This document shows positions 1 to 30,255 of a DNA stretch of 33,277 nt, in pieces. A program made the translations under genes and the position numbers. The notes under the pieces are model-generated. The model had not been told where the DNA came from and did not search any database. It saw nothing but the letters and a program-made list of their open reading frames with translations. How positions within the stretch are numbered: the first letter of the stretch is position 1; every line of letters starts with the position of its first letter. The DNA comes from a virus: the IMG/VR virus record IMGVR_UViG_3300033145_000125, positions 1 through 33,277 of that record; one strand, written 5' to 3'.

Positions 1-1
1 G

Positions 2-175
2 AGTGACTTCGGGAGGATGATGGAGGACATCGACCACTGTGGCGACTGCCCCCTACTTGATGAATGTATAGTGACGCCACTTGACGAGGTGCATTTCCGA
101 AATACCCAGCTCGACTACTTCTATGAGAAGCACTTCAGGCCGCTGCACAAGTGTATTGGGAGGGCACTGGCATGA
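2..175 (+). CDS. Small Cys-containing protein, probably 5'-truncated by the window edge
   Basis: The reading frame is open from base 2 to the TGA at 173-175. If translation starts at ATG 17 or 20, just after GGGAGG at 11-16, the product is about 51-52 residues. Its N-terminal part holds C8, C11 and C17, and another Cys lies near the C-terminus, so a small metal site is possible. The first bases read in frame as S-D-F-G-R before the Met. S-D is how the leader shared by the next small genes (MMDERMSD) ends, so the true start may lie left of the window. The stop overlaps the next start as ATGA. I do not recognise a family. Confidence 0.5.
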   Translation, partial: SDFGRMMEDIDHCGDCPLLDECIVTPLDEVHFRNTQLDYFYEKHFRPLHKCIGRALA

Positions 176-402
176 AGGAGGGAACACTTCCTTGTATACC
201 GGATAGATGCCGGGTCTACATGAAATACATCGACGGAAGACAAGTAAATGTATTGGTTCAGCACATGGATGATGGGCCAGATTTGATCATTGACTGGTGC
301 GAAGGAATGCCTGGATGTACTAGCCGGAGTTCTAACCATGATGGAAACGTAGTTAGGCTTAGTAAAGGCAGAGAACGAGATACCACAAAAACGGGACGAT
401 AG
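172..402 (+). CDS. Hypothetical small protein, 76 aa
   Basis: A GTG at 151 is in frame, but ATG 172 is the better start. It has GGGAGG eight bases upstream and overlaps the preceding stop as ATGA, which suggests translational coupling. The product has a basic C-terminus (KGRERDTTKTGR) and cysteines at about residues 8, 13, 43 and 49. I recognise no domain. It is the second gene of a tightly packed array of small plus-strand genes, so an early accessory role is likely, but that rests on position alone. Confidence 0.55.
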   Translation: MKEGTLPCIPDRCRVYMKYIDGRQVNVLVQHMDDGPDLIIDWCEGMPGCTSRSSNHDGNVVRLSKGRERDTTKTGR

Positions 403-419
403 TACCGGAAAAGGAGGGG

Positions 420-761
420 ATGATGGGTGAATACGTGTTTTCTGACTACACAATCGAACTCATGCAGGAAGATGACGGTTCCTGGTTTGCAGAGGTCATC
501 GAGTGTCTCGGCTGTATGGCAGCAGGTGATTCTCCGACTGATACCGTAGATCGTCTACGCAGGTCATTTGACGTATGGTGTGAGGATGTAATCGCTAATG
601 GTGGCTCGATTCCCAAGCCCATACCGAGATGCGCTTCAGCAAGTCGAGTATGTGCCGTATGCGGTGGGAGCGTGGAGGAGCCGAAAACCAAGCGACACGG
701 TATTGGTGACGGCTGGGTCACGTTTGAATGTGATTCCAAGTACCACGACAGGAGGGGATGA
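420..761 (+). CDS. HicB-like antitoxin-fold protein with C-terminal zinc ribbon
   Basis: Residues 8-69 match the HicB partial RNase H fold: Y-T-I-E-L, then DDGSWFAEVIECLGC, then GDSPTDTVDRLRRSFDVW, ending G-x-x-IPKP. In HicAB systems HicB neutralises the HicA ribonuclease and usually represses its operon through a C-terminal HTH or ribbon-helix-helix domain. Here that region is a short zinc-ribbon-like tail with C78, C81, C104 and H109. I see no HicA (double-stranded-RNA-binding-like, about 60 residues, conserved His) on either side, so this is an orphan. It could protect against a host HicA or act as a regulator; both are inferences. ATG 420 lies only two bases after GGAGG, so ATG 423 may be the real start. 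The stop overlaps the next ATG. Confidence 0.75.
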   Translation: MMGEYVFSDYTIELMQEDDGSWFAEVIECLGCMAAGDSPTDTVDRLRRSFDVWCEDVIANGGSIPKPIPRCASASRVCAVCGGSVEEPKTKRHGIGDGWVTFECDSKYHDRRG

Positions 762-782
762 TGGACGAGCGAATGAGTGACG
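757..782 (+). repeat. Start-site leader repeat, copy 1
   Basis: The 26 bases cover ATGATG plus the codons for DERMSD and one further base. They are identical to 1347-1372 and 1616-1641. Identity at DNA level, including synonymous positions, points to recent duplication or gene conversion rather than protein selection alone. Confidence 0.85.
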
Positions 783-1132
783 CGCGACTTACAGAGCTAT
801 TCCCATTTGGTCTGTGGTGGGGCGACTCTATGGTTACTCGTCCAGCACACGTTGGCGTAAAACGAGGGCCACGCCTTACTTGTGACGATATGACCGATGA
901 ACAGGCCGAAGCGATAGCGCATCTACCAGATGCGCTCAAGGCCGAACGCGCTTACGTCAAGAAGCTAGAGCGCGTGGTGGAGGAGGTTACACACCGTTCG
1001 AGAAATGGATGTACTCGTTTGGGCGGCAGAAGGTGCTCTCACTGGTACTCCTTTCCATTCAACATGTGTCTGTCATGCTCCTTGTATGATCACTATGAGC
1101 CACTAACCGAACAGCAAGCCGAGGTGAAATGA
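758..1132 (+). CDS. Leader-sharing small protein A, 124 aa
   Basis: Starts with MMDERMSD, encoded by a 26-base stretch that is identical at two later start sites (1347-1372 and 1616-1641). A middle segment, DALKAERAYVKKLERVVEEV, predicts a charged helix or coiled coil and is repeated in the gene at 1348. Next comes a Cys-rich stretch (NGCTRLGGRRCSHW, then NMCLSCSLYDH), possibly a zinc site, and then the shared end EQQAEVK. ATG 758 overlaps the preceding TGA; ATG 774 (MSD) is a third in-frame start option. No known family. The shared ends with different middles suggest modular evolution. Confidence 0.65.
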   Translation: MMDERMSDARLTELFPFGLWWGDSMVTRPAHVGVKRGPRLTCDDMTDEQAEAIAHLPDALKAERAYVKKLERVVEEVTHRSRNGCTRLGGRRCSHWYSFPFNMCLSCSLYDHYEPLTEQQAEVK

Positions 1133-1341
1133 TGGATAAGCTTGCGGCAACGCGTAGCGGGAAGGTGTGGGCGGTGACGCACCATGCTGGGTCGGTGAGT
1201 CTATACCGCGCAAGAACCGAGGCAAGTGCATACCGAAAGGCACTACTTGATTATGGTAGGAATGGCTGTCCGTACAGGGCAACGACTGACCTGGATGAGG
1301 TCGAGTTTGCGTATAGCGTGGGTGCCATTATCAACGAATAG
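1129..1341 (+). CDS. Hypothetical small protein, 70 aa
   Basis: Begins MMDKLAATRSGKVWAV and overlaps the stop of the previous gene as ATGA. The upstream bases (gccgaggtgaa) are a weaker form of the gccgaggagg element that precedes the later genes. The product lacks the AERAYVKKLER helix, so it is not a full member of the leader family. A Tyr/Arg-rich centre (SLYRARTEASAYRKALLDYG) suggests one small alpha/beta domain. No family recognised. Confidence 0.55.
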   Translation: MMDKLAATRSGKVWAVTHHAGSVSLYRARTEASAYRKALLDYGRNGCPYRATTDLDEVEFAYSVGAIINE

Positions 1342-1346
1342 GAGGC

Positions 1347-1372
1347 GATGATGGACGAGCGAATGAGTGACG
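1347..1372 (+). repeat. Start-site leader repeat, copy 2
   Basis: Identical over 26 bases to copies at 757 and 1616. It is preceded by GGAGGC, so the ribosome site is almost adjacent to the first ATG. Confidence 0.85.
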
Positions 1373-1620
1373 ATAAGGTGGAGTATTTCCGACGCCAACT
1401 AGCTCTGGAACGGTTTAAGAACGAGCGGCCCTATCTGTTTCACAACCAACGAACGCTATGGTTGTTGGACGCTCTTGATGCCGAACGCGCATACGTCAAG
1501 AAGCTAGAGCGCATGGTGGATGCGTTGTGTGGGGCGTGTGAACGTGAGCAATCATGGCCCACGACTAACACAAAAGTATATTGGCGTGAGTGGGCCGAAC
1601 AGCAAGCCGAGGAGGGATGA
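1348..1620 (+). CDS. Leader-sharing small protein C, 90 aa
   Basis: Carries all three shared elements of the local family: MMDERMSD at the N-terminus, DALDAERAYVKKLERMVDAL in the middle and EWAEQQAEEG at the end. The regions between are unrelated to the gene at 758, apart from a Cys pair after the helix (LCGACERE). GGAGGC precedes ATG 1348 directly. The stop TGA (1618-1620) lies inside the ATGATG start of the next gene. Function unknown; it looks helical and mostly charged. Confidence 0.65.
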   Translation: MMDERMSDDKVEYFRRQLALERFKNERPYLFHNQRTLWLLDALDAERAYVKKLERMVDALCGACEREQSWPTTNTKVYWREWAEQQAEEG

Positions 1621-1641
1621 TGGACGAGCGAATGAGTGACG
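1616..1641 (+). repeat. Start-site leader repeat, copy 3
   Basis: Identical to copies 1 and 2. It is preceded by gaacagcaagccgaggagg, an element that recurs in variant form at about 1117-1129, 1790-1810 and 2003-2017. Confidence 0.85.
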
Positions 1642-1814
1642 ATGGGGCTAGGACGGCACTAGACGCGATGGAACTCGTGGGAGACAAACCGTGCGCTACC
1701 GCTAATCGTAAGGTGGTGCTGGCATACATCGAGAAGCTAGTGGTCTGTTATACACACGAAGAGCGAGTAGCCTTTGCCCGCAAGTGGCTCGAACAGAAAG
1801 CCGAGGAGGAATGA
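1617..1814 (+). CDS. Leader-sharing small protein D, 65 aa
   Basis: Starts with MMDERMSD from the third identical copy of the 26-base leader. The next stretch, GARTALDAMELVG, is partly duplicated in the 19-codon ORF at 2019. The middle helix is a diverged version (VVLAYIEKLVVCY) of AYVKKLER, and the end is LEQKAEEE. It is the shortest member of the family with all three elements, so it may approximate the minimal unit. Translation is probably coupled to the upstream gene through ATGATG. Confidence 0.62.
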   Translation: MMDERMSDDGARTALDAMELVGDKPCATANRKVVLAYIEKLVVCYTHEERVAFARKWLEQKAEEE

Positions 1815-2002
1815 TGAAAGTCTACGACCTTACATTTCTTATCGAGAAGGCCAAGGGAACCGACCCCGGATTCATCGTCCATGCGTACGACAACCACACC
1901 GAAGACCACTTCGATTTCTTCTCGTTCAGTGCTATGAAGCCACTCGGCGAACAGCTTATCGCTCTTGCTGAATGGGCGATAGGGTTGGACGACCTAATAT
2001 GA
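1811..2002 (+). CDS. Hypothetical small protein, 63 aa
   Basis: Begins MMKVYDLTFLIEKAKG after GAGGAGGA, overlapping the previous stop. The leader is absent, but the preceding gccgaggagga element is the same as at the other boundaries. The sequence alternates beta-like and helical stretches (GFIVHAYDNHTEDHFDFFSFSAMKPLGEQLIALAEWAIG). I recognise no domain. In-frame starts further upstream are unlikely because they run through the preceding gene without a ribosome site. Confidence 0.6.
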   Translation: MMKVYDLTFLIEKAKGTDPGFIVHAYDNHTEDHFDFFSFSAMKPLGEQLIALAEWAIGLDDLI

Positions 2003-2017
2003 CACAAGCCGAGGAGG

Positions 2018-2043
2018 GATGATGGACGAGCAAGTGAGTAACG
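2018..2043 (+). repeat. Start-site leader repeat, diverged copy 4
   Basis: Differs from the other copies at three positions and encodes MMDEQVSN. Homology to the 1617 gene continues for about 20 bases past the leader, then ends. Confidence 0.7.
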
Positions 2044-2078
2044 AGGCTAGGGCGGCACTAGACGTGCATACGCTATGA
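2019..2078 (+). pseudogene. 19-codon remnant of a leader-sharing small gene
   Basis: The ORF reads MMDEQVSNEARAALDVHTL and stops with TGA inside the next gene's ATG (ATGA at 2075-2078). Its DNA is a diverged copy of the start of the gene at 1617: leader with three changes, then gaggctagggcggcactagac compared with ggggctaggacggcactagac. Upstream, cacaagccgaggagg copies the 3' boundary element although it lies beyond the preceding stop. It looks like a duplicated cassette cut off by the arrival of the 2075 gene. It could still be translated and couple that gene. Confidence 0.5.
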
Positions 2079-2425
2079 CATCGGATAAGGAGATACGTGA
2101 CGCACTCGAAGCTGGATCGGTTATCAGTCCAGAACTGATCTGTTCTAAGTGTTTCAAACCGAAACTCGCAGCATCGCAGTATTGCTCTGACTGTACTGAG
2201 AGTGATCCGCCTAGAATGGGTCGTCCTGTACAATACACCGACGAGGAGATCTTGACTGTGATAGAAGCAGGCTGCGAGACTACTGATAACATCCTAGAAG
2301 CTCTTGGGATGCGGAGTAAGCGCAATCTATTGATCCGATTACGTCGAATGCGCGATAACGGTCTCGTGAACATCATCGAGAGACCTAGACGTTATGGGTT
2401 CACTATTCTATCCAATCGACAGTGA
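2075..2425 (+). CDS. Zinc-ribbon plus winged-helix-like DNA-binding protein
   Basis: 116 residues. The N-terminal half has CSKC and YCSDC, a four-Cys zinc ribbon (about residues 23-40). The second half, from YTDEEILTVIEAGCETTDNILEALGM onward, reads as a helix-turn-helix followed by RLRRMRDNGLVNIIERPRRYGFTIL. That is a recognition helix and beta wing as in winged-helix regulators. It is the best candidate for a transcription regulator in this half of the window. The ATG overlaps the stop of the preceding remnant ORF. The family is not identified by name, and the DNA-binding role is inferred from fold-like features. Confidence 0.6.
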   Translation: MTSDKEIRDALEAGSVISPELICSKCFKPKLAASQYCSDCTESDPPRMGRPVQYTDEEILTVIEAGCETTDNILEALGMRSKRNLLIRLRRMRDNGLVNIIERPRRYGFTILSNRQ

Positions 2426-2436
2426 AGGAGACTAAC

Positions 2437-2769
2437 GTGGAGACCCAGTTAGGCAAAATAACCAGTGTCAGGTTTGGTTTTGGTGGTTATCAAGACGCCC
2501 AGTTTGGACTTAGTGTTGGTTTGGGTGCTGAAGGTTGGGGTGTAGGAGATTTTATGGGAGCCTGGTCTATCCGAACTAAGGTATCCAAATACACCGAATG
2601 GACTGAGGCTGACCGAGATGCTCAGTTAGCCAAGACTATGCGGTACCTTAACCAGTTGCTTATTGACGCGAAGAAACAGCATGTGAACGAACTGGTCGGT
2701 GTCCCGGTGGAGATCGTTTTCAACGACGGTATGCTGAGTAGCTGGCGAATCTTAACCGAAGTGGTCTAG
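2437..2769 (+). CDS. Conserved phage protein of unknown function (GGYQDAQFG type)
   Basis: 110 residues from GTG 2437, which has AAGGAG six bases upstream; the longer frame from GTG 2422 would place that ribosome site inside the gene. The N-terminal signature KITSVRFGFGGYQDAQFGLS followed by GWGVGDFMGAW resembles a small protein seen in many phage early regions. Its function is not known to me. The centre is helical (EADRDAQLAKTMRYLNQLLIDA), and the end (VPVEIVFNDGMLSSWRIL) is beta-rich. Confidence 0.6.
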   Translation: METQLGKITSVRFGFGGYQDAQFGLSVGLGAEGWGVGDFMGAWSIRTKVSKYTEWTEADRDAQLAKTMRYLNQLLIDAKKQHVNELVGVPVEIVFNDGMLSSWRILTEVV

Positions 2770-2770
2770 T

Positions 2771-3073
2771 GTGTCCGTCGAAGCTGACAGAGAAAGACTC
2801 CTAGCCAAAGATCCTATCGCCATACTCATCCAGGCATTCCTACAGGACGACGGGCGCGGATCGTTGGAGGTGGTCTGTCCCGAGCCGGGTACCACCCTGG
2901 ACGACGGCACTCACTTTCTGGACGTCAAGGGTGTGAATCCAGACAAGATGTACTCGCGGATCTACACCATCGCTCTGAGGATGCACTACCTCAAAACCGA
3001 GCTATGGGTACAGAAGAAAGGCCGTTCAGTGTGGCTTCATAAATTCGACTACAAGGCGGTGAAACATGAGTAA
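2771..3073 (+). CDS. Hypothetical protein, 100 aa
   Basis: Starts at GTG 2771, one base after the previous stop. No strong ribosome site is visible, so coupling is likely. The sequence is mixed alpha/beta (DPIAILIQAFLQDDGRGSLE, then YTIALRMHYLKTELWVQKKG). No family recognised. It overlaps the next gene by 8 bases, so the group at 2437-4917 is probably one transcription unit. Confidence 0.5.
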   Translation: MSVEADRERLLAKDPIAILIQAFLQDDGRGSLEVVCPEPGTTLDDGTHFLDVKGVNPDKMYSRIYTIALRMHYLKTELWVQKKGRSVWLHKFDYKAVKHE

Positions 3074-3254
3074 CCGACAATGTGAGTGCTGTGGGTATCC
3101 CGCCAAACGGGGCATACTACCCATTATCTGGCCTGATCCCGATTCTGGACGGGACGTGTACTGTTCGGTATTTTGTTTCGAAAGTCGTATGAAGATGCGA
3201 CTGCCTGAACCTTACCGCACCCTCCACCTTGCCGCAGAGAAAGCAGCAGAATGA
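3066..3254 (+). CDS. Small zinc-finger protein, 62 aa
   Basis: Four cysteines in two pairs, CECCGYPAKRG near residue 6 and YCSVFCFESR near residue 32, form a treble-clef or zinc-ribbon-like site similar to the HNH-associated or FYVE-like knuckles common in phage small proteins. It lies directly before the SNF2 helicase and its stop overlaps the helicase ATG as ATGA, so a co-translated accessory role is plausible but unproven. Confidence 0.55.
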   Translation: MSNRQCECCGYPAKRGILPIIWPDPDSGRDVYCSVFCFESRMKMRLPEPYRTLHLAAEKAAE

Positions 3255-4648
3255 GCTATAAGCTGTTCGATCACCAAAAGAAGATGTTAGAGATCCTCAC
3301 AGAGAACGACCGATTCCTCTTACTCCCACAGACGGGAACTGGGAAGACGCTCCCGGCTGTTATCCACATGAGCAATCTCTACCTCGCGGGTGAGATCCAG
3401 AACGCACTCATCGTGGCACCATTATCAGGTCTTGGTGCGTGGTCGAGGGACATCAAGAAACTCACCCCCGAGAGACAAGAACTCATCTGGAAACATACTC
3501 GGTGTATCAACTACGCCAAACTCTCGCGCAACAAAGGTCGGTACCAGAAAGAGTGTTGGCAGCAGTGGGATCTCATCATGCTGGACGAGGGCCACGCCAT
3601 AGCCAAACCAACATCGAACCGTACCAAGTATTTTGTCGGTCGAGGTAAGACCCTAGGGCTTGCATCGAAAGCCCAGTATCGTTATATCATCACAGGGACG
3701 CTCATCAACAACAGCCGACTGGAGGACATCTGGTCTCCACTACGATTCCTGTACGACGAGGACTGGATGACCTGGGCTGATTTCAAGCGTAAGTATCTTG
3801 TGATGCGTAACCTCCCAGGGTCATACGCGCAGATAGTGGTCGGGTATCGGCACCGAGCGGAGTTGCTCGACCTCGTTGGGTCTTGCTCCTATCGGGTGCT
3901 CAAAAAGGACTGTCTCGACTTGCCCGAGGTGATGTCCGATGAGATCATCAAAGTACCGTTCGCTGCTGGTAAGAATACCGAGCCGTTCGTTAAGACGACA
4001 AAAGCTCTCTACGAGGACGCGCTTGACTCCTATGTCGAGGCGTTAGACATGGTGATGGACAATCCCCTGACCCGATTGCTCCGTATGCGTCAGATCGCCA
4101 CAGGACACATCAAAGAGTCTGACACTGGGGATGAGACAGGCAGACGGATGCGGGGTAAGACCTATCCGTTGAAATCGCACAAAGCCAAATATGTGATGGA
4201 GTTGATAGAGAACAACCAGCCGTACAAAACAGTGGTATTCTACAACTTCCGGGCTACCTGTTTGGCTCTTGAGAAGGCATTGAAGTCTAAGGGTGTCAAG
4301 TACGTGACGCTCAACGGAGACCAGAAGAACAAAAACATCTGGCAGGATTTCCAAGCAGATGACAGTATCAAGGTCATAGTGGTACAGTATCAGTCAGGGT
4401 CTCGTGCCATCGACTTGTTCGCGTCGAGTTACACCATCTACGTGGAGCCGACCGATAGCAGCGAGATGATGGAGCAGAGTCGAGCCAGGACTGACAGGTT
4501 CGGACAGACCGAGGCGTGTAACTATGTATTCCTGCTCACAGAAGGATCGGTGGAGGAGGACATGTACAAGAAGCTGGCTGGTCATCAGGACTTTGCAGAA
4601 CGCAGTTATCGTGAGATCACCCGGAGCCGAGTGAAAGGAGCCAAGTGA
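3251..4648 (+). CDS. SNF2-type superfamily II DNA helicase/translocase
   Basis: 465 residues, a compact SNF2-like ATPase. Visible motifs: Walker A as PQTGTGKT (K32), an unusual TGTGKT in place of DxGxGKT; Walker B DEGH at 112-115; motif III ITGT at 147-150; and motif VI QSRARTDRFGQ at 409-419, typical of SNF2 proteins. In phages such proteins work in replication fork remodelling or recombination, moving on double-stranded DNA without true unwinding. The C-terminal RecA lobe begins near KTVVFYNFRATCLALEKAL. There is no extra DNA-binding domain. It sits in a run of overlapping genes; the next ATG shares one base with its stop (TGATG). Confidence 0.9.
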   Translation: MSYKLFDHQKKMLEILTENDRFLLLPQTGTGKTLPAVIHMSNLYLAGEIQNALIVAPLSGLGAWSRDIKKLTPERQELIWKHTRCINYAKLSRNKGRYQKECWQQWDLIMLDEGHAIAKPTSNRTKYFVGRGKTLGLASKAQYRYIITGTLINNSRLEDIWSPLRFLYDEDWMTWADFKRKYLVMRNLPGSYAQIVVGYRHRAELLDLVGSCSYRVLKKDCLDLPEVMSDEIIKVPFAAGKNTEPFVKTTKALYEDALDSYVEALDMVMDNPLTRLLRMRQIATGHIKESDTGDETGRRMRGKTYPLKSHKAKYVMELIENNQPYKTVVFYNFRATCLALEKALKSKGVKYVTLNGDQKNKNIWQDFQADDSIKVIVVQYQSGSRAIDLFASSYTIYVEPTDSSEMMEQSRARTDRFGQTEACNYVFLLTEGSVEEDMYKKLAGHQDFAERSYREITRSRVKGAK

Positions 4649-5448: not shown

Positions 5449-5670
5449 ATGGGTGAGTTAACCGATATTGAGAAGGCTGCGATTGCGTTGGTGAAGGACG
5501 ACGAAGATAGCGGATCGCCGTGGTATGCTGTCAGATACTATGGCGAAACATGTAACCAATGCGGTGCGGATATTGGACGCGGCGGCTCTCACCGAGATGA
5601 TTGTTCAGCAATACGCCTAGAGACCGCCGTGAAAGCACGCCAAGAAGATGATCTGACATGCGAGCACTAG
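5449..5670 (+). CDS. Small acidic zinc-ribbon-like protein, 73 aa
   Basis: First gene after the divergent promoter region, with GGAAGGAG and a run of seven A (the last belonging to the ATG) before the start. After a helical acidic N-terminus (LTDIEKAAIALVKDDEDSGS) comes TCNQCGADIGRGGSHRDDCS, a probable zinc site built from CxxC and a later H/C pair. No family recognised. The next small gene begins inside its end (overlap of 13 bases). Confidence 0.6.
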   Translation: MGELTDIEKAAIALVKDDEDSGSPWYAVRYYGETCNQCGADIGRGGSHRDDCSAIRLETAVKARQEDDLTCEH

Positions 5671-5762
5671 CGTTCATAGTCGGACTCATAGCAGGATTCC
5701 TGGGGATGACCCGCGAGAAAAAGTATGTGTCGGCGGTGGAGCGATGCAAACCGCACTGCTGA
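5658..5762 (+). CDS. Tiny single-span membrane protein, 34 aa
   Basis: Sequence begins MRALAFIVGLIAGFLGMTRE: one hydrophobic segment at residues 3-17, followed by a short basic tail with two Cys (ERCKPHC). Too short for ordinary gene callers. It overlaps the upstream gene by 13 bases and the following gene by 19 in another frame. No strong ribosome site is visible, so confidence rests on the clean membrane segment and overlapping-gene layout. Confidence 0.4.
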   Translation: MRALAFIVGLIAGFLGMTREKKYVSAVERCKPHC

Positions 5763-5839
5763 CATTCGTATGGATGGGCGTTGTACAAGTCGCGCTGATA
5801 GTCGCTGTGTTGGTATGGGATGCGAACCATCGTGGATGA
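5744..5839 (+). CDS. Tiny single-span membrane protein, 31 aa
   Basis: Begins MQTALLTFVWMGVVQVALIV and is nearly all hydrophobic up to residue 25, ending in DANHRG. GGTGGAG lies just upstream of the ATG. Together with the 34-residue protein it forms a pair of overlapping membrane miniproteins in different frames. This recalls nested lysis or spanin genes, but the features of those families (lipobox, long periplasmic coil) are missing. Confidence 0.4.
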   Translation: MQTALLTFVWMGVVQVALIVAVLVWDANHRG

Positions 5840-5894
5840 TGAGGCACGGTTAGAAACTATAGTCACACGGAAGGGGATCGACGACCAAGCATGA
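5820..5894 (+). CDS. Possible 24-codon coupling ORF before the primase
   Basis: Reads MRTIVDDEARLETIVTRKGI followed by DDQA, and stops on the ATGA of the primase start. It fills the gap between the membrane miniprotein and the primase, whose own ribosome site (GGAAGGGG) is about 15 bases from the ATG and so suboptimal. Translation through this ORF could feed the primase start. The evidence is weak. Confidence 0.3.
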   Translation: MRTIVDDEARLETIVTRKGIDDQA

Positions 5895-8299: not shown

Positions 8300-8538
8300 C
8301 CAAACGACACACTCCATTCGACGAACTCGACCCATTCGACAGTCCCTTAGATATAGTCGATGGATTCGATGGGTTCACATTGACCGATGTGGACAATGTG
8401 GAGGATGCGTGGTATAACAGTCTAGCATGTGATACCACGTTCTGCGAGTTCGGCTTTGGCGACGAGGATGGGCTGTGTGTCAGAGACCGATACGGGTGTC
8501 GAATAGAAGGATGTCCTTATGCGATACCAAACGAGTGA
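8296..8538 (+). CDS. Acidic Cys-rich small protein, 80 aa
   Basis: The N-terminal 45 residues are very acidic (DELDPFDSPLDIVDGFDGF). The C-terminal part has five Cys in about 30 residues, ending CRIEGCPYAIPNE. It overlaps the primase end (ATGA) and the following HNH gene by 20 bases. An acidic, DNA-mimic-like composition is notable, but no function can be assigned. No family recognised. Confidence 0.55.
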   Translation: MTKRHTPFDELDPFDSPLDIVDGFDGFTLTDVDNVEDAWYNSLACDTTFCEFGFGDEDGLCVRDRYGCRIEGCPYAIPNE

Positions 8539-9025
8539 GGTGTGGGTTGCGATTCCTTATTTTCCGACTTACCAGATTTCTACTCTGGGTCGATTTTGTG
8601 GGCCGAGAGGAATAAAGAAACTGGAAACTACACATCGGGGGTATTTGCGATCTTGTATATACCAGGGAAAACGAGGTAAACCAAAACATGTTGTGATTCA
8701 TCGGTTGGTTGCCGAGGCCTTTATTCCAAATTCAAAACACAAACCAGAAGTAAATCACATCAATTGCGACAAAACAGATAACCGAGTTGAGAATCTTGAG
8801 TGGGTCACAAGGAAAGAAAACGCAGCCCACGCACGTAAGTTTGGGTGCTATTCTCATGGGGAACAACGATACAACCATAAATTGACCGAACAGACTGTGC
8901 GTGAGATTCGGAACGCCAAGAACAAAACGCATCAACAATTGGCCGATGACTACGGTGTGGCGAAACCTACAATCACACAGGTTCTTACCGGCAGAAAATG
9001 GAAACATGTGACCGCAAATGGGTGA
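8519..9025 (+). CDS. HNH homing endonuclease with NUMOD4 module
   Basis: 168 residues. NUMOD4 signature at the start (EVWVAIPYFPTYQISTLGRF), HNH core HRLVAEAFIPN (H61) and VNHINCDKTDNRVENLEWVT (H80, N88, N92), and a C-terminal helix-turn-helix (LTEQTVREIR, then QLADDYGVAKPTITQVLTG) for site recognition. These are free-standing homing nucleases that spread into intron-less alleles of neighbouring phage genes. The DNA is visibly more A+T-rich than the flanking replication genes, consistent with recent arrival. AAGGA lies seven bases before the ATG, inside the preceding gene. Confidence 0.9.
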   Translation: MRYQTSEVWVAIPYFPTYQISTLGRFCGPRGIKKLETTHRGYLRSCIYQGKRGKPKHVVIHRLVAEAFIPNSKHKPEVNHINCDKTDNRVENLEWVTRKENAAHARKFGCYSHGEQRYNHKLTEQTVREIRNAKNKTHQQLADDYGVAKPTITQVLTGRKWKHVTANG

Positions 9026-9367: not shown

Positions 9368-12094
9368 ATGACACAGCAGAACTTATGGTTCTTCGATACT
9401 GAGACTTTCGCTCATGATTGGCTGTTCGTAGCAAAACGACAAAGCGATGGCGAGACCATCACCGTATGGAACGACAACGAGAGCGTTCAGGATTTCGTCG
9501 AGTTACTGAATCCAATCCTCTGCGGTTACAACACTAGTCACTACGACCAGTACATCTTGAAGGCTATCCTGTTGGACTGGGAACCGAAAGATGTGAAACG
9601 GGTCAATGACACCATCATCCACGAGGACGACCGTTCGTTGGTGTGGGCGTTATTCCAAGGCCATCCGTGGGTGGTTTTACCCCCAACGATAGATCTATGG
9701 CCCGATATCGTACCCCGCAAATCTCTCAAAGAGATCGAAGCCAATATCGGTATGGACATCGTAGAGTCCTCTGTATCGTTCGATATCGACAGACCACTCA
9801 CGGTTACCGAGCGCGACGAGGTGACACGCTACTGTAAGCATGATGTGGCGGCGACAGAGGCTCTCTACGCTTTGCGGTTCGACTATCTGAAAGCTAAATC
9901 AGACCTGTGTGAATTGCGCGACGTAGACCCGAATACGATGCTTCAGCATACCAACGCTCGTATCGTCTCGGAAGTGCTTGGCGCGACCAGACTTCCGAGT
10001 ATCCCGTATGAGGAATACGAGATACCAGACAATGTAAACCAGACGGCAATACCCCAAGAGGTCTTGGACTTCGTTCTGTCTGTGAATACTGACAATTGTA
10101 TGGACAATGCCGAGAAGATAGAATTCATGTTCCACGATTGCCCCACCGTCGTCGGTCTGGGCGGCATACACGCCGCCGTACCGTCCTACAAGGAGACTGC
10201 TGACGAGGATAGAGTCATCCTTCACCAAGATATCGGGTCATTCTACCCATCACTTATCATCAATAATGGTTACATGAGCCGCTCAGTGCCCGATGGCGGG
10301 CATTACAAGCAATTCTATGACCTCCGTATGCAAGCGAAGGCTGACGGCGATAAGGCGACCGCTGACGCCGCCAAACTGGTACTCAACACCACATACGGCA
10401 CGATGAAAGATACATACAACAAGATGTACGACCCGATGCAGGGTACAAGAGTCTGTCTGAGTGGACAGCTTTATATCTTGGATCTCATCGAGTTGTTATT
10501 TTTTGCGAGTTCCTATGCACCAAAGACTCAGCCGATGGGACTACAACTCATTCAACTTAACACTGACGGGTGGATCATATCTTGCGCCCGTAAACATGTG
10601 TGGCGAATATACGACGCTGTTGCTGTATGGAAAAGACGTACGGGGTTCACGGTGGACACCCACGAGATAGAGGTTATCGTTCAGGCAAACGTTAACAACT
10701 ACGTGATGCGTACCACCGAGGGTGTCGTCACGACTAAGGGTGGTGTCGTCACACATCACGCTGGCGGGGATTTCAAGTCCAACAGTAGGACTATCATAGA
10801 CAAGGCCGTGGTGGACTATCTGCTAGACGATGTTCCGTTGGAGAATACTATTCTTCAATGTGACGATATCGAGCGGTTCCAGATAGTAGCCAAAGCTGGA
10901 CGGATGTTTCAGAAGGTAGTGCATGGGTATCGTGTGGGTGTTAGTGAAAAAGAAGACCCGGCTAATATATTAGGGTTTGATGCCGAAGCTGAGACCCAAC
11001 GGTGTAACCGAGTCTATGCTACTACTGCCAAGAAGTACGGCGGCATATTCAAACTCAAGATAAAGGACGGAGAGGAGGTCGGACGGTCCAAGATCCCGCT
11101 TACCCCAGAGCATTGTTTTGTGGACAACGAGAACAAGTGGAAAGACATCGGGATCGACTTGACAACGCTCGACAAATCGTGGTATGTTGCTCTAGCTAAA
11201 AAGAAGGCCAAAGCATTTATCACCCGAGACAAAAAGGAGAAGGATCAAATGACAGAAACAGATGAGAAGACTAACGAACTAAAAGACGGCAAAGCAGCAC
11301 CGAAGGCGAAGCCAAAAGCAAAGGCAAAGAGCAAAGCCGCACCCAAGAAACTCACCTTCAAAGAGAAGTTGCCTCAACTTCAGATCGCTATGGCGAACGC
11401 AGCAAAGGGTGTCACATTCGATGGTGTTGTGTCGAATATCTCTTATGAGTATGCCGACACACAACAGTACAAAACTTGGCTTGCTTCCATATGCTCAGAG
11501 CTTGGTTTGATTTTCAAGTTGAACACCACAAGTGAATTTTTAGGTATCATCACCCCAGAAAGCAAAAACACACCGAGTTACGCAGTCCACGCAACAGGTT
11601 GGGTGACTATTACCGATGTTGAGTCAGACGAACACGAACACTATGATATCAGCGGTCTAGGCGTGAATGTCCAGGCTGGATACTGCGAAGGTGTAGCACA
11701 GACCAACGCGCTCCGCAATTTCATTCTTAACAACTACCTACTCGACAACAAGGGTCGTGACGGCGATGATGTCGGCATGAACGCCGATGACATCGGTAAG
11801 TCAGGTTACGTCTCTGGGGCTGAGAAGGCTCAGATCAAACAGGAGATATCTGACAAGAAGGCTGACGAGAAGAAGTACGCGACAGATATCTATGCCAAAG
11901 CACTCTACAAGAAGATAGTCGAAGCGCAGAAGACCAAACCGAAGTTCGGTGCGAAGATACTCAAGGAGCACTTCGAAACTGACGGCACACCGAAAATGGG
12001 CAAGAACGGCAAATCTACAATCCCCAAATCAACCGCCACGTTGGGATATGGCAAAGCCGAAGAGATCATTGCGGAAGGTGAAGCCGATGTCTGA
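9368..12094 (+). CDS. Family B DNA polymerase fused in frame to an ERF-like annealing protein
   Basis: 908 residues. Residues 1-627 are a compact family B polymerase. Exonuclease motifs: FDTETF (D10, E12), GYNTSHYD (N55, D60) and YCKHD (Y155, D159). Polymerase motifs: A is QDIGSFYPS (D288), B is KLVLNTTYG (K336, N340, Y343, G344) and C is LNTDG (D400). A GGIHAA motif at 265-270 lies between the two domains. After WYVALAKKKAKAFI, where polymerases of this type normally end, the frame continues through a Lys/Ala/Pro linker into an ERF-like domain (about 650-800) with the C-terminal signature SGLGVNVQAGYCEGVAQTNA. Met 628 has its own ribosome site, so a separate ERF product is likely as well. 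I know of no standard polymerase-ERF fusion. Confidence 0.88.
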   Translation: MTQQNLWFFDTETFAHDWLFVAKRQSDGETITVWNDNESVQDFVELLNPILCGYNTSHYDQYILKAILLDWEPKDVKRVNDTIIHEDDRSLVWALFQGHPWVVLPPTIDLWPDIVPRKSLKEIEANIGMDIVESSVSFDIDRPLTVTERDEVTRYCKHDVAATEALYALRFDYLKAKSDLCELRDVDPNTMLQHTNARIVSEVLGATRLPSIPYEEYEIPDNVNQTAIPQEVLDFVLSVNTDNCMDNAEKIEFMFHDCPTVVGLGGIHAAVPSYKETADEDRVILHQDIGSFYPSLIINNGYMSRSVPDGGHYKQFYDLRMQAKADGDKATADAAKLVLNTTYGTMKDTYNKMYDPMQGTRVCLSGQLYILDLIELLFFASSYAPKTQPMGLQLIQLNTDGWIISCARKHVWRIYDAVAVWKRRTGFTVDTHEIEVIVQANVNNYVMRTTEGVVTTKGGVVTHHAGGDFKSNSRTIIDKAVVDYLLDDVPLENTILQCDDIERFQIVAKAGRMFQKVVHGYRVGVSEKEDPANILGFDAEAETQRCNRVYATTAKKYGGIFKLKIKDGEEVGRSKIPLTPEHCFVDNENKWKDIGIDLTTLDKSWYVALAKKKAKAFITRDKKEKDQMTETDEKTNELKDGKAAPKAKPKAKAKSKAAPKKLTFKEKLPQLQIAMANAAKGVTFDGVVSNISYEYADTQQYKTWLASICSELGLIFKLNTTSEFLGIITPESKNTPSYAVHATGWVTITDVESDEHEHYDISGLGVNVQAGYCEGVAQTNALRNFILNNYLLDNKGRDGDDVGMNADDIGKSGYVSGAEKAQIKQEISDKKADEKKYATDIYAKALYKKIVEAQKTKPKFGAKILKEHFETDGTPKMGKNGKSTIPKSTATLGYGKAEEIIAEGEADV
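11236..11251 (+). promoter_or_regulatory. Internal ribosome site and start codon inside the polymerase-ERF frame
   Basis: AAAAAGGAGAAGG followed by ATG, with nine bases between GGAG and ATG. It lies exactly at the junction between the polymerase and ERF parts, where a stop codon would be expected. Confidence 0.6.
11249..12094 (+). CDS. ERF-like single-strand annealing protein from an internal start
   Basis: Same frame as the polymerase gene. GGAG at 11236-11239 lies nine bases before ATG 11249, and the product would begin MTETDEKTNELKDGKAAPKA, like an ordinary protein start. ERF-family proteins anneal complementary single strands during phage recombination. The domain runs from LTFKEKLPQLQIAMANA to about NNYLLDNKG, followed by a charged helical tail and GYGKAEEIIAEGEADV. 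The partner exonuclease is encoded at 12504. Whether the free form, the fusion or both are made cannot be told from sequence. Confidence 0.6.
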   Translation: MTETDEKTNELKDGKAAPKAKPKAKAKSKAAPKKLTFKEKLPQLQIAMANAAKGVTFDGVVSNISYEYADTQQYKTWLASICSELGLIFKLNTTSEFLGIITPESKNTPSYAVHATGWVTITDVESDEHEHYDISGLGVNVQAGYCEGVAQTNALRNFILNNYLLDNKGRDGDDVGMNADDIGKSGYVSGAEKAQIKQEISDKKADEKKYATDIYAKALYKKIVEAQKTKPKFGAKILKEHFETDGTPKMGKNGKSTIPKSTATLGYGKAEEIIAEGEADV

Positions 12095-14892: not shown

Positions 14893-16854
14893 CTAGTATG
14901 GATCTTCGACGACGGTGTATTCGCCGTCGGTAGCACCGTTGAATTTACGTCTGATTGCAGTAACGATGACGGGAATGCCATCAGGCACAGCCAGTGTGTC
15001 TAGCTTCACCCTATCGCCTACTTCTATAGCGGGGTCGTCCCGCATACTGAACTTGTAACTCATAGCTGTCTTGAAAGTGTGGTATCGGTCGTACATCGCC
15101 AGAGCCATCGTTCGGTCAGACGCTATCGGATTGTCGAAATCCTTAGTCTCACCTCTGACCGTATCGTAGGTCTTGGACAGTTGACTCTCACCGAAAGTCA
15201 CCGCGTTGCCCGAAAGGACTAGTGTGAACGTGCCGACAAAATCGGGCGTAGCATCGAATGTCGTGCTGTAGGTGTTGTATGTCGGAGATCCGTTCAGAGT
15301 GGCATCCGTAAGTTCTAACGAGCCGCCAGAGCAGGGGTCATGCGTGATTGTGAATGTAGTCTGGTCGGTGGTGACAGCTTCAATAGCTGCTTCCATTATC
15401 GTAGTGCTGCCTACTGCTGTGTTATAGGTACGTAGTTTTCCTTGTATGGTGGTGACGTTCTCACCTTTGATAGTTTCTGGACGGTCGTAGATACGGTCGA
15501 TGTCCAGATGGTAGTCCAGCGCCGAACCGAGGTCTGGTACGATATCCAACGAGCCGTCAGAGCGATGGAGCAGATGTGCCCCACAGTATGCTGCGAGCAT
15601 CGTCAAGGCTTTCCTATGCGTTACCGGGGGAATTGGTATGTCTACCATCACGGTGTCGAAAGCCGAGTCGATGTGATAGTAGTCGTAGCCAGTGCGCTCC
15701 CAGATCAAAGTAGTGTCTGAGGCTACGCACCCAGCGTCGCCTATGACGTAGCCCCAATCCCCCTCTGCGGGAAAATCCACATCGTCTAGCACTTCTGCGA
15801 ACAGTGTAGACGCGGCTATACCACCCCCGTCATACCGTCCACCGTAGAAAATGTTAGTGTCCAGCCAAGTAGTGAAAGATTCCCCCTGAACTGTCAGGTA
15901 CTTGTCGTCTTTGGATATCTTACTTTCCGTGAATTTCTGACGAGTGATGGGGATGTTATCGAAATCCCCCGCGCTGTAGAAGTATCCTAAGCCCGCGTCG
16001 ATGAAGCCTGATTTCTGTAGTTCCAGCTTCATATACGGATTGGTAAAATCGTAAGGGTTTGGGGTGGCGGTATAGAGCCTGCCCCCGCCGATTCCGGCGA
16101 TGAGATGCGACCCGTCAGAGTCAGAGGCTACGACGCTCCAACCCTCAGTCCCTTCTTCGGCTGGCTGACGGTCAGTCCAAGTAACTCCGCCGTTGGCAGA
16201 AGTGTGGAGTATGCCTACGTTGTTTGCCACGATGAGATTAGACCCGTCAGAGTCAGAGGCTACGGAAGCCCAGCCCGCCGTCCCATCAACGCCTGTGGGC
16301 CGACGCTCAGTCCAGGTGACTCCGCTATCGTCGGAGGTGTAGAGTCTGCCAGCCCATTTTCCCGCGATGAGATGCGACCCATCAGAGTCAGAGGCTACGG
16401 TATTCCAGTTCCCGGCTACAGCTTCAACGGGATGACGGTTAGTCCAAGTGGCCCCACTATCGTCGGAGATATAAAGTTTGTCAACCGAAGCTGCCGCGAT
16501 AAGATTAGACCCGTCAGAATCAGAGGCTACAGCATACCAGTCCTCGTCTGCATCCCCGGCTGGCTGGCGCTCAGTCCAGTTGGCTCCGCTATCGTCGGAG
16601 GTGTAGAGCCTGCCCCCGCCGATTCCGGCGATGAGATGCGACCCATCAGAATCAGAGGCTACGACGCTCCAGCCCTTGTCCGCATCCCCGGCTGGCTGGC
16701 GCTCAGTCCAGTTGGCTCCGCTATCGTCGGAGGTGTAGAGTCTGCCACCATAAACCCCGGCGATGAGGTTGCGACCATTTGCCTCAGAGGAAGACGCTAA
16801 GGCCCACCAGTCCTTGTCTACATCCCCTGCGGGCCGACGCTCAGTCCAGATCAT
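14893..16854 (-). CDS. Tail-tip protein with N-terminal six-bladed Asp-box propeller
   Basis: 653 residues. Residues 1 to about 265 hold six blades of 44-46 residues with repeating VASDSDGSHLIAG and Asp-box SDDSGANW (T41, T85, I129, T173, T219; the sixth lacks it). The opening MIWTERRP has the sequence of a blade end, so it probably closes the ring with the last GGRLYTA. Asp-box propellers occur in sialidases and sortilin-like proteins; here there is no sialidase active site. Residues about 270-653 (KLELQKSGFIDAGLGYFYSA, then VGDRVKLDTLAVPDG near the end) resemble siphovirus Gp37-like tail-associated proteins. The propeller may bind glycans at the tail tip. The start is preceded by AAGGAG. 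Confidence 0.78.
   Translation of the reverse strand: MIWTERRPAGDVDKDWWALASSSEANGRNLIAGVYGGRLYTSDDSGANWTERQPAGDADKGWSVVASDSDGSHLIAGIGGGRLYTSDDSGANWTERQPAGDADEDWYAVASDSDGSNLIAAASVDKLYISDDSGATWTNRHPVEAVAGNWNTVASDSDGSHLIAGKWAGRLYTSDDSGVTWTERRPTGVDGTAGWASVASDSDGSNLIVANNVGILHTSANGGVTWTDRQPAEEGTEGWSVVASDSDGSHLIAGIGGGRLYTATPNPYDFTNPYMKLELQKSGFIDAGLGYFYSAGDFDNIPITRQKFTESKISKDDKYLTVQGESFTTWLDTNIFYGGRYDGGGIAASTLFAEVLDDVDFPAEGDWGYVIGDAGCVASDTTLIWERTGYDYYHIDSAFDTVMVDIPIPPVTHRKALTMLAAYCGAHLLHRSDGSLDIVPDLGSALDYHLDIDRIYDRPETIKGENVTTIQGKLRTYNTAVGSTTIMEAAIEAVTTDQTTFTITHDPCSGGSLELTDATLNGSPTYNTYSTTFDATPDFVGTFTLVLSGNAVTFGESQLSKTYDTVRGETKDFDNPIASDRTMALAMYDRYHTFKTAMSYKFSMRDDPAIEVGDRVKLDTLAVPDGIPVIVTAIRRKFNGATDGEYTVVEDPY
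16076..16800 (-). repeat. DNA repeats encoding propeller blades
   Basis: Units of about 132-138 bases. Stretches around 16076-16112 and 16608-16644 are base-identical, and their flanks are nearly so, four units apart. Adjacent blades at about 16560-16740 are also almost identical. Such identity points to recent duplication or conversion within the gene. Confidence 0.8.
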
Positions 16855-27105: not shown

Positions 27106-28008
27106 TTACTCGTAGAACGTGCCGTCTGGCGCGGTGAATGAACCATCCACAGCGATTACTGGATAGAGTGAGAAGTTGCCGTTCGGCTGTACATAGAAAA
27201 CACCAAAACCGTTCACCCAAGCGTTTGGATGATTGCGGCGATAATGGGGGTTTATCTTACAGGCACAGGGGAGCTGGGTCGCTGTGTGAGATTCTACATC
27301 CAACGGCGCGGTAAGTGTATGTGCCTGATAGGTATGCCCATGCCCATAGGCTACGTTTCGAGCGTAGACCTGGGCTGTCTTGTACGCATTGTGGATATTG
27401 ATGTATGTTCCGTGAGTGAAATACAACTTACCGACTTTGGCGACTTCACCGTAATCGTAGACAGCCCAGTTATCGAGTGGTAGATTGTTTCGTATCTCGA
27501 AGAATCCTTCCACCTCTGGATGTTCATCTATGTATTGCTCAACCCAATCTTCGTGATTGCCTAATAGGTATATACGTTCGGTATCGTCGCCGAGGATGTC
27601 GTCGATAGGTGCGAGGACATCCTTCGTGAAGCGGGTATAGTCTCTCTTGAGTCTCTGGCCTTCTACTCTCCGTCGCTTGTTTCCGACCCAATGACTTATG
27701 ACCTCCAGATCTTGATTATCACCACCGAAAACGAATACGTCGGGTTCAAATGCGTCCGTAAATGCTAAGATATTATGCCATAACTTACTGTGATGGTGTG
27801 GGTGGTGAAGATCGAACACCGCAATACCTTTGCGGAGAGTGATAGGCTCTGGTCGTCCACCGAACCAATCAAGACCTATGAGTTCTGGGTCTTTCTTGGC
27901 TTTGCGTATCATCCTGCGGGCATTGGCCCCGTCGATGCCCAATCGTCTACCTAATTCTTCCCCACTGAGGGGAGCATACTTTTTCCATTGTGCTGCTGTG
28001 ATGTTCAA
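27106..28008 (-). CDS. Calcineurin-like metallophosphoesterase with N-terminal HTH
   Basis: 300 residues. The N-terminal 40 residues form a helix-turn-helix (LSGEELGRRLGIDGANARRM). The catalytic domain has all metal motifs: FDLHHP (D66, H68), GGDNQD (D97), GNHED (N151, H152), YFTHG (H199) and GHGH (H223, H225). Such enzymes act on phosphodiesters, including nucleic acids; a similar gene occurs between terminase and portal in several siphoviruses. The HTH suggests DNA binding, so packaging-linked nuclease activity is possible but unproven. AAGGAGG lies nine bases before the start. Confidence 0.85.
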   Translation of the reverse strand: MNITAAQWKKYAPLSGEELGRRLGIDGANARRMIRKAKKDPELIGLDWFGGRPEPITLRKGIAVFDLHHPHHHSKLWHNILAFTDAFEPDVFVFGGDNQDLEVISHWVGNKRRRVEGQRLKRDYTRFTKDVLAPIDDILGDDTERIYLLGNHEDWVEQYIDEHPEVEGFFEIRNNLPLDNWAVYDYGEVAKVGKLYFTHGTYINIHNAYKTAQVYARNVAYGHGHTYQAHTLTAPLDVESHTATQLPCACKINPHYRRNHPNAWVNGFGVFYVQPNGNFSLYPVIAVDGSFTAPDGTFYE

Positions 28009-28060: not shown

Positions 28061-28567
28061 TCATAGAACTTTCTTGGCTATGCGTGCGGGTTTGTGGTGT
28101 TTGGTATGACATGACCGGCAAAGAACAACACACTTAGTCACTTCGGCCAGAATCTCGTCGTCGGTGCGGGCAGAGATAGTAGACAACTGAAATGTCTTGG
28201 TATTTGGATTAACGTGATGCCAGCAAAGATCGACAGTCGCGCCACAGTTAACACAGGGCGTTTGGTAGTCGGCTAGCAGTATTCGCAACCGGCGGCAATA
28301 GGCCGCGTAATGTGCTGCGTTCTGGGCCTTAATCTTTTTGGGATTGGCGGCATTCCACGCGATGCTGGCTGCTTTGTACTTCTCGCGGTTGGCCGCGTAG
28401 TTGGCTGCGCTAGCAGCCAGGTGTTTCTCTCGGTTGGCCGCGTAGTAGGCAGCATCCCGAGCCTTGTCACATGCGCGACACTGATACCGCAACCCATCAA
28501 CGGCCCGCTTCTCCCGGTAGAACTCACCAAGCGGTTTGTCTTTGCCACACCTGCAGCAACGCTTCAT
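28061..28567 (-). CDS. HNH endonuclease with zinc finger and ANREK repeats
   Basis: 168 residues from ATG 28567, chosen because GGAGGG lies seven bases upstream; in-frame ATGs at 28582 and 28633 lack a site. N-terminal zinc knuckle RCCRCGKDK...YQCRACD; then three short repeats (YAANREKHLAASAAN, YAANREKYKAASIAW, NAANPKKIKAQNAAH), a basic helical linker; then the HNH core with CVNCGATVDLCWHHVNP and VVLCRSCHTKHH. These free-standing nucleases sit beside terminase genes in many phages, some aiding packaging and others homing. The original gene order terL-phosphoesterase-portal appears interrupted here. Confidence 0.88.
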   Translation of the reverse strand: MKRCCRCGKDKPLGEFYREKRAVDGLRYQCRACDKARDAAYYAANREKHLAASAANYAANREKYKAASIAWNAANPKKIKAQNAAHYAAYCRRLRILLADYQTPCVNCGATVDLCWHHVNPNTKTFQLSTISARTDDEILAEVTKCVVLCRSCHTKHHKPARIAKKVL

Positions 28568-28584
28568 GGCTTGGCCCTCCATCG

Positions 28585-30255
28585 CTAAATGTGAGTTCGG
28601 TCGAATAGGGTGATAGTGGCATTGAGGCTGCACCGCATCATAGCCGCGAGACCCGCGAGGGAATCAGGTGCGTCGTCGTTGAAATTCTTCCCGTTCACCG
28701 TGTACGTGGTCAGCCCTGTGATGAATGCGCGATACATCGGTGACCCGGCATCTGGATGAAGGAATGTGAAGCTCCTAATAGCCGGTGAGTGCTGTATGAT
28801 GCGAGTCTCTTTGCTCTTATTGGATTTCGCCAACATGTTGGTTATGAACATCTTATGGTCAGTCTCTTTAACCAACGCATCTACATCCCGCGAATAGAAA
28901 TCACCGCCGTTGTTCGCTTCGAACACCGCCCGGACGACCTTACGGTTCACGAGACTCCCGGCCACCATCGGTTCGGTGAGTTTGTATCCACCCTTGAGGA
29001 ATATCGCATCAGCGATGACAGGCGGATCGTCGCCCCACTGATAGGCTATCGGCATAGAGAGGAAGTCGTTACCACCGAACGCCACATCGCAGAAGGCGAA
29101 GATGTCGTCTGGAGGATGGGCTTCGATATCGGGAATGTCGTAACAGTAAATAAGTTCATCGGCGGGGAATAGGAGACCTGCTCGCTCGATAGGCTGTTGC
29201 TGGTAGACACACTGCCATGTTACCTCATCTTCTAGGCGACGTACTTCGCGGTAGTATTCGGTGCTGAATCCAATACCATAGCTGTACTGGAAATTCGATT
29301 CGTCAGTCTCAAGGTCTAGTGCAGGCATACGGATGACTTTGCAACGTGGGTTGTCCTCGTGCATCCGTTCTACCCACCCGATTGGATCGTGTATCGACCA
29401 ACGGGTACCGATATGGAGTTCCTTACAGCCCTCTTTCTTACGACTATAGACGTTAGTGACTAGCTTATCGCGCAATATCTGAAGTCGATTCGGGTTCAAA
29501 GCTTCTTCGATGTCGCGTACTAGGTCATCACAGTAAAGAAGCTGTCGGGCTTCGGTAGCGCCTGTGAGTGACCCGTCGATGGCTCGGCAGGTGATGGTCT
29601 TGTATTTCCTGACTGATTTCTTTCCATCATCACGGAAATCAAGTGTGAGATCTTTCGCGCTAGTGTTCACCAAGTCCAACTTAGGGAATATTTCGTGGTA
29701 GTTGTAGTTCGGGTCTTCGTATATTGCAGTCAACCCAGTGTGGAACATTTTGGTAATAGTCTCAGCATACCCCGTAGCCAGAATGGGGTCATCTGGGTTC
29801 CTACCTGCTACCCACGAGATGAAAAACAGCCCCAAAGCCGACTTACCGACCCTAACTGGCATCGAAAATAGGACGATATCATAAAGGTCTTTGACCATCA
29901 AATCTGTGAGCGCATCGACTACATGCCTGAGTACAGACATGCGAGGCTGATAGAATCGAGCATGGGCTGGGCGCTTCCATTCGAGAGCTATCATGTAGTC
30001 ATGGAAGTTATTGGGTGCGCGGGTGATGTATGCCCGCTCTAGCGCGTCGTAGACCTCCATCTGCTCAGTCTTGTTCCCATCGGTACCCAGGAACGCTCGA
30101 CCGAGGGTTATGACTTCTGAGGCTATCTGCTCGGCTTCTTCGATGGCTTCATCTTGAACCAGCGCGTACCGCAGAACATCACCCGCGATGATGCGTCGGT
30201 GGGATGATTGGGTGGGGTCAGATAAGATTCTAGTGAGATCTGTGATGTCACTCAT
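28585..30255 (-). CDS. terL: Terminase large subunit
   Basis: 556 residues. ATPase: Walker A SMPVRVGKS (K138, a PxRxGKS form), Walker B LLYCDD (239-244) and HIGTRW near 281 as coupling motif. Nuclease of RNase H type: FCDVAFGG (D390), FEANNGG (E446) and DDAPDSLAG (D531). Packages DNA into proheads together with the portal. The first 100 residues are a long helical extension, which might take over part of the small-subunit role since no small subunit is visible. ATG 30255 has no ribosome site and is six bases from the promoter -10, so the mRNA is probably leaderless. No alternative Met occurs until about residue 66. Confidence 0.93.
   Translation of the reverse strand: MSDITDLTRILSDPTQSSHRRIIAGDVLRYALVQDEAIEEAEQIASEVITLGRAFLGTDGNKTEQMEVYDALERAYITRAPNNFHDYMIALEWKRPAHARFYQPRMSVLRHVVDALTDLMVKDLYDIVLFSMPVRVGKSALGLFFISWVAGRNPDDPILATGYAETITKMFHTGLTAIYEDPNYNYHEIFPKLDLVNTSAKDLTLDFRDDGKKSVRKYKTITCRAIDGSLTGATEARQLLYCDDLVRDIEEALNPNRLQILRDKLVTNVYSRKKEGCKELHIGTRWSIHDPIGWVERMHEDNPRCKVIRMPALDLETDESNFQYSYGIGFSTEYYREVRRLEDEVTWQCVYQQQPIERAGLLFPADELIYCYDIPDIEAHPPDDIFAFCDVAFGGNDFLSMPIAYQWGDDPPVIADAIFLKGGYKLTEPMVAGSLVNRKVVRAVFEANNGGDFYSRDVDALVKETDHKMFITNMLAKSNKSKETRIIQHSPAIRSFTFLHPDAGSPMYRAFITGLTTYTVNGKNFNDDAPDSLAGLAAMMRCSLNATITLFDRTHI

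Follow-up and report, generated by a model that had tools for sequence, protein, structure and literature searches.

A phage array of small genes probably assorted by homologous recombination at short shared segments

Gene content and setting of the array

The window, by which we mean the whole stretch of 33,277 nucleotides analysed here (IMGVR_UViG_3300033145_000125), is an entire contig (C107) from a metagenome-assembled genome and belongs to a tailed phage with an SNF2-type helicase at 3251, a D5-type primase at 5891, a polymerase-like protein at 9368, a YqaJ exonuclease at 12504, and structural genes on the minus strand. At the head of its early/replication region lies an array of small plus-strand genes packed stop-on-start. 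On the left the array continues past the contig start (position 1). Its right edge is a winged-helix-like gene (2075..2425, +), which has weak DNA-binding matches and homologues upstream of the helicase in six of six relatives. This is the first gene conserved in the lineage: homology to these relatives, whose helicases are 63-68% identical to that of the window phage, starts here, and the array is absent from all six. The GC content of the array (52%) does not differ from that of the rest of the phage, and no Rfam families or tRNAs were detected in the window. Its position beside early and replication genes fits an accessory early role. Other features of these genomes are 12-bp repeats arranged in tandem ahead of the helicase of one relative (L007, 3513-3822), and two window ORFs judged by eye to be HNH-endonuclease-like and possibly homing endonucleases (8519-9025, +; 28061-28633, -).

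Scans of 2.9 million viral contigs revealed only two other carriers of the array, both IMG/VR phages, with shared blocks in new combinations: IMGVR_UViG_3300033144_002094 (G100, 34.4 kb) and IMGVR_UViG_3300033151_001174 (G162, a 27.7-kb contig). G100, with a 106-bp exact terminal repeat, is probably a complete circular genome of 34.3 kb; its array spans the ends. Outside the array, G100 has no detectable homology to the window phage (tblastx, 1e-5) except a 53-bp piece of a micro-ORF (MRALAFIVGLIAGFLGMTRE.. / MKLLAFIVGLIAGFLWMSARA; window 5657-5763 and L024 7797-7866), 90.6% identical between these otherwise unrelated phages. This gene for a tiny membrane-like peptide would thus have been exchanged in a second event, separate from the array. 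The rest of G162 shares patches with G100, mostly at 83-97%. Neither 50,697 phage records (DNA or protein) nor 155 genomes of the same class (DNA and profile) contained a relative of the array. The sole match among genome contigs, L023, was rejected, as it lies inside a long glycosyltransferase-like ORF, and 28-bp E-like matches in two relatives of the window phage look like chance, the one checked being inside a polymerase-like ORF. Many isolate-phage matches had been expected for the MMDERNAIIES protein of G162 and were not found; its PHROG match holds. The analysis thus rests on three carriers including the window phage, all metagenome assemblies, so the exchange events available are few.

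The leftmost gene of the window (1..175, +, SDFGRMMEDIDHC...) is 5'-truncated and is 98.2% identical in nucleotides to G100 34012-34181 and 95.9% to G162rc 27568-27736; the full copies in both carriers start MMAKLEGASISDCR, directly after an E segment. It is followed by a small gene, MKEGTLPC...KTGR (172..402, +). Positions 235-426 are 96.9% identical to G100 34183-34374, and 63 bp of this gene (171-234) are absent in G100. The next gene (420..761, +) encodes a weak HicB/UPF0150-like N-domain and a Cys-rich C-tail (648-758), with 648-782 being 98.5% identical to G100 33565-33699. This tail follows the HicB-like domain in the window and a zinc-ribbon-like N-domain in G100 (L001 13868-14128); the breakpoint is at the domain border, where there is no repeated segment. 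Three modular plus-strand genes come next, built from a start segment (S), a variable insert, a helix segment (H), and an end segment (E): gene 758 (758..1132; S, N1, H, C1, E), gene 1348 (1348..1620; S, N2, H, C2, E), and gene 1617 (1617..1814; S, a short insert, a degraded H, E). The N-half of gene 1348 is common to G100 (96.7% nucleotide identity, 1340-1522), but its C-half is not. Two leader-less small genes, MMDKLAATRSGK (1129..1341, +) and MMKVYDLTF (1811..2002, +), are interspersed, and a remnant modular ORF, MMDEQVSNEARAALDVHTL (2019..2078, +), closes the array, its stop overlapping the start of gene 2075.

Shared segments and their start signals

The original prediction described a base-identical 26-base leader on the three modular genes, a middle helix diverged in the third, and a common end, and all three elements were borne out. 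Exact copies of the leader GATGATGGACGAGCGAATGAGTGACG lie at 757-782, 1347-1372, and 1616-1641, and a fourth copy with three mismatches (2021-2041) heads the 19-codon remnant ORF. Allowing up to three mismatches, the pattern matched four times in the window and never in 100 shuffles of it. Under protein conservation alone, the identity of the leader codons in three copies has P ~3e-5. Repeat search placed the S copies at 750..782 (AGGAGGGGATGATGGACGAGCGAATGAGTGACG), 1340..1372, 1610..1641, and, truncated, 2012-2043 (all +). Among the exact repeats of at least 20 bp listed for the 33-kb window, all fall in this array or in the internal repeats of a tail gene (~16.1-16.8 kb). That tail-region protein (14893-16854, -) has tandem repeats (TSDDSGANWTERQPAGDADKGW..VVASDSDGSHLIAG) resembling BNR/beta-propeller repeats, with exact 20-mer repeats inside.

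Segment alignment located H (AERAYVKKLER) at 941..981 and 1480..1522 (both +), the 3' edge of the latter coinciding with a breakpoint between the window and G100. Identity between 941-981 and 1480-1520 is 95% over 41 bp, with 10 of 11 H codons identical in genes 758 and 1348 (P(>=10/11) = 1.7e-4 from phage codon usage), whereas in gene 1617 only 19 bp at 89% remain (1722-1740, +). E lies at 1107..1134, overlapping the start of gene 1129, at 1589..1623, overlapping the next ribosome-binding site and start, and at 1783..1817 (all +), and gives genes 758, 1348, and 1617 the endings EQQAEVK, EQQAEEG, and EQKAEEE, respectively. A non-coding E copy (2005-2024) together with the fourth S forms 2005..2064 (+), which repeats 1603-1665 (E, S, and the first codons of gene 1617) at 89%. 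This 63-bp direct repeat flanks genes 1617 and 1811; if its copies recombined, both genes would be lost and the remnant gene would stay behind. The 3' element gaacagcaagccgaggagg had been predicted to precede leader-less genes as well. As an exact string it occurs in the window only at 1597, the copies before 1129 and 1811 being variants, but exact copies precede leader-less genes in both carriers.

A fourth segment, J (317..426, +), is a junction of ~100 bp ending ...GTACCGGAAAAGGAGGGGATGATGG and present in four copies in three phages. It is coding in the window and in G100 copy 2, and non-coding after a lysis gene in G100 copy 1 and in G162. Its start-proximal part varies at 2 of 55 sites, against 13 of 44 further upstream (Fisher p=4e-4). 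As an RNA stem-loop, J scored no better than shuffles (z -0.1 to 0.3). The block AGGAGG-N1-2-ATGATG closes S, E, and J alike, in a weaker variant in one E copy, and usually overlaps the preceding stop codon; all six AGGAGG-N-ATGATG starts of the window are within the array. Outside the arrays, a short S heads two genes of other families. One is G100 2279, and the other, in G162, belongs to phrog_30930, with residue 5 as the first position of its family match.

Because J is conserved even where it is non-coding and S heads unrelated families, the segments appear to act at the nucleotide level in translation initiation, besides providing homology. These observations, with the start block that terminates S, E, and J, would also be expected if the segments were conserved for expression only, as translation-start elements of the start-associated sequence (SAS) type homogenised by selection, with recombination being incidental. 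We judge this improbable: H is intragenic and needs no start signal, and blocks of 130-230 bp that recur in new combinations in unrelated phages, with identities of 97-99%, require exchange. The expression role and the recombination role of the segments are compatible.

Breakpoints and exchange between phages

Comparison of the three arrays showed that these segments of 20-110 bp are the sites where the arrays of different phages pass from near-identity to no similarity. Four window blocks recur in G100 (1-170, 98%; 235-426, 97%; 648-782, 98.5%; 1340-1522, 97%), where 648-782 is joined to 1340-1522, followed by 1-170 and then 235-426. Crossing over between S copies 1 and 2 is predicted to join window 648-782 to 1373-1530; the product differs from G100 33565-33849 at 7 positions over the first 285 bp, and the join in G100 has GGGG upstream, as in copy 1, and ATAAGG downstream, as in copy 2. 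In sequence the join thus matches what an exchange between the S copies of genes 758 and 1348 would yield; such an event would remove genes 758 and 1129 or, in reverse, mark their gain. Beyond the edge of H (1522), the window and G100 lose their identity within ~30 bp and regain it in E. In G162 the lysis-gene J copy is joined directly to a G100b-type gene, apparently the product of a J x J crossover. When G162 is compared with G100, the G100b N-half extends across H and is followed by an unrelated C-half, and the start of the SDFGR block lies in E. The gene G162a is of the G100b type left of H and changes within H to the W1348 type (TACGTCAAG...GGTGGATG), which places a crossover inside H. 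In two cases, then, a single N-half is linked at H with C-halves that are unrelated to each other.

Most breakpoints fall in S, H, E, or J. The switches at these segments indicate that genes were gained, lost, and reordered at S, E, and J, and that N- and C-halves were re-paired at H. Two window/G100 breakpoints, 171/234 and 647 inside gene 420, coincide with no repeated segment, so illegitimate recombination, or partners that were not seen, must account for some events. As the blocks are common to otherwise unrelated phages, the array, or parts of it, moved between phages without other detectable relationship. The suggestion of recent recombination between short homologies thus has strong support: in two independent phage sequences the blocks are re-assorted and the breakpoints can be resolved.

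The inserts were said to differ from gene to gene, and no pairwise homology was found between inserts of different genes. In pairwise shuffled Smith-Waterman comparisons, only two N-half pairs matched (W1348/G100a, z 31.7; G100b/G162a, z 23.1), as their common descent would predict, while the other 13 N-half pairs gave z <=2 and all 15 C-half pairs z <=2.2; hhalign and BLASTP found no insert homology for the pairs tried. Distant homology among such short singleton inserts may exist. Homology at profile level would have meant simple tandem duplication, in which the modular genes are paralogues that diverged fast between a few constrained patches. The genes do stand in tandem with an identical order of patches, and 1603-1665/2005-2064 amounts to a partial duplication extending past the leader. 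However, the lack of insert homology argues against this explanation. Moreover, identity falls abruptly from ~95-100% to background within ~15-30 bp, patch codons are identical at synonymous sites, and N-halves 97% identical in DNA carry unrelated C-halves in different phages, leaving tandem duplication with little probability. Diversifying selection was also considered and rejected: all five differences between the 1348 N-half and G100 are nonsynonymous, but the pooled shared blocks, with 6 synonymous and 9 nonsynonymous differences, gave no support.

The mosaics could also be assembly chimeras between co-occurring phages, as the array holds the first bases of the window contig and the last of the G162 contig, which is expected where repeats fork an assembly graph. 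This, too, is hardly probable, given that the shared blocks are 96-99% rather than 100% identical, that G100 and G162 come from different metagenome accessions, that the G100 array is carried across the 106-bp exact terminal repeat, and that the same kinds of joins recur independently in G162. Finally, a dedicated cassette system, with a specific recombinase acting at S, H, or E sites as in integrons, would account for short repeated boundary segments around variable inserts, yet it is very improbable with no integrase-like gene seen beside the array, no obvious inverted-repeat core sites in the segments, breakpoints that resolve at differing positions within them, and a J that folds no better than its shuffles.

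Taken together, our results point to an accessory early-gene array that was likely assorted by homologous recombination at short segments doubling as start junctions or as an amphipathic helix. S, E, and J serve as interchangeable joints at most gene boundaries, carrying the same ribosome-binding/start block, and H, inside the modular genes, is predicted to encode a long amphipathic helix. Crossovers at these places would preserve the start signal, the reading frame, and the helix, so that recombinants stay expressible. The exchange itself would be annealing-type homologous recombination by phage enzymes during co-infection. Candidate nucleases are the YqaJ-type exonuclease of the window phage and a DUF3799 PDDEXK nuclease of G100; no annealing protein was identified in either phage. 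Red-beta has a minimum homology of ~30 bp, and annealing recombinases act on short, diverged homologies (PMC3945230). The identical runs in the array (26-28 bp) are close to this minimum, some identities of 26 bp being slightly below it. In a stronger version, which we regard as unlikely, the array is an evolved combinatorial system. The phages of one community would then draw on a common stock of N-halves, C-halves, and whole genes; their standard start, hinge, and end segments would be kept identical for the sake of the recombination that they promote, and new early proteins would continually be built by co-infection.

Array products and known systems

The products gave nothing convincing in PADLOC, Pfam, or PHROGs and have no relatives in isolate phages; the best defence-protein profile match (PADLOC) had an E-value of 0.008 and 13 bits. 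The proposal of an anti-defence or host-takeover function accordingly found no supporting match in these searches or in structure. For gene 758 the AlphaFold2 single-sequence model was unusable (pLDDT 38.7). That of gene 1348 was moderate (72), with helices at 8-26, 34-66, and 79-89, H being in the long one, and no PDB fold matched it. From this model, tentatively, H may be an oligomerisation helix, which would let the products oligomerise while the variable halves contact different targets.

Whether the mosaic joints of phages arise at short boundary homologies or by illegitimate recombination has long been debated, and to our knowledge boundary homologies are rarely found at them. Here several joints, among them joints inside a gene, can be read at near base resolution, and the exchange bridges phages without other detectable relationship. 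The array is hence a compact system in which to ask whether start signals and helix hinges also act as points of exchange for orphan early genes.

Several known systems share parts of this arrangement. SAS and ESAS elements, the start-associated sequences of Cluster K mycobacteriophages and Microbacterium Cluster EF phages (PMC3203893, PMC7302621), are likewise repeated, unusually conserved ribosome-binding-site segments on many small non-structural genes of different families, and sometimes overlap the upstream stop codon. In agreement with this type, AGGAGG-N1-2-ATGATG plus GGACGAGC occurs on unrelated gene families in three phages. However, SAS is 13 bp long, lies mostly 3-7 bp upstream of the start, and has the consensus GGGATAGGAGCCC, whereas the array segment differs in sequence, reaches 21-24 bp into the coding sequence, and is accompanied by helix and end segments and by resolved exchanges. 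E resembles the case of Island3 genes 67/68 and Brujita, in which adjacent genes share an 18-residue C-terminus in DNA (~50 bp) and a gene is gained or lost when recombination occurs within this stretch (PMC3029335). The array, too, has mosaic breakpoints in short sequences common to non-homologous neighbours. The Island3 case involves one gene pair in closely related phages, whereas the array has segments of several types and a hinge within genes, and at least three exchanges took place in it, between phages that are unrelated.

A further comparison is with PeSL elements, which consist of a promoter plus a stable stem-loop. As cited in PMC4503421, these mobile regulatory cassettes of T4-type phages are repeated regulatory elements that mediate the shuffling of small ORFan genes. 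The array differs in that 1-3300 has no match to a sigma-70-like promoter, the type searched, and in the folding of J. Ea22 proteins of lambdoid phages are small accessory proteins with a common coiled-coil, divergent ends, and a short common C-terminal tag (PMC7093339); the array proteins have no family sequence match to them (Pfam/PHROGs), and exchange at the coiled-coil is not shown in that report. Rad52-like relaxed recombination, our proposed engine, was measured in lambda and Phi80 (PMC3945230) and, for the array, is inferred. In summary, precedents exist, and the array combines features of SAS and of boundary sequences and adds an intragenic hinge; the helix-hinged swap of half-genes across unrelated phages is unusual.
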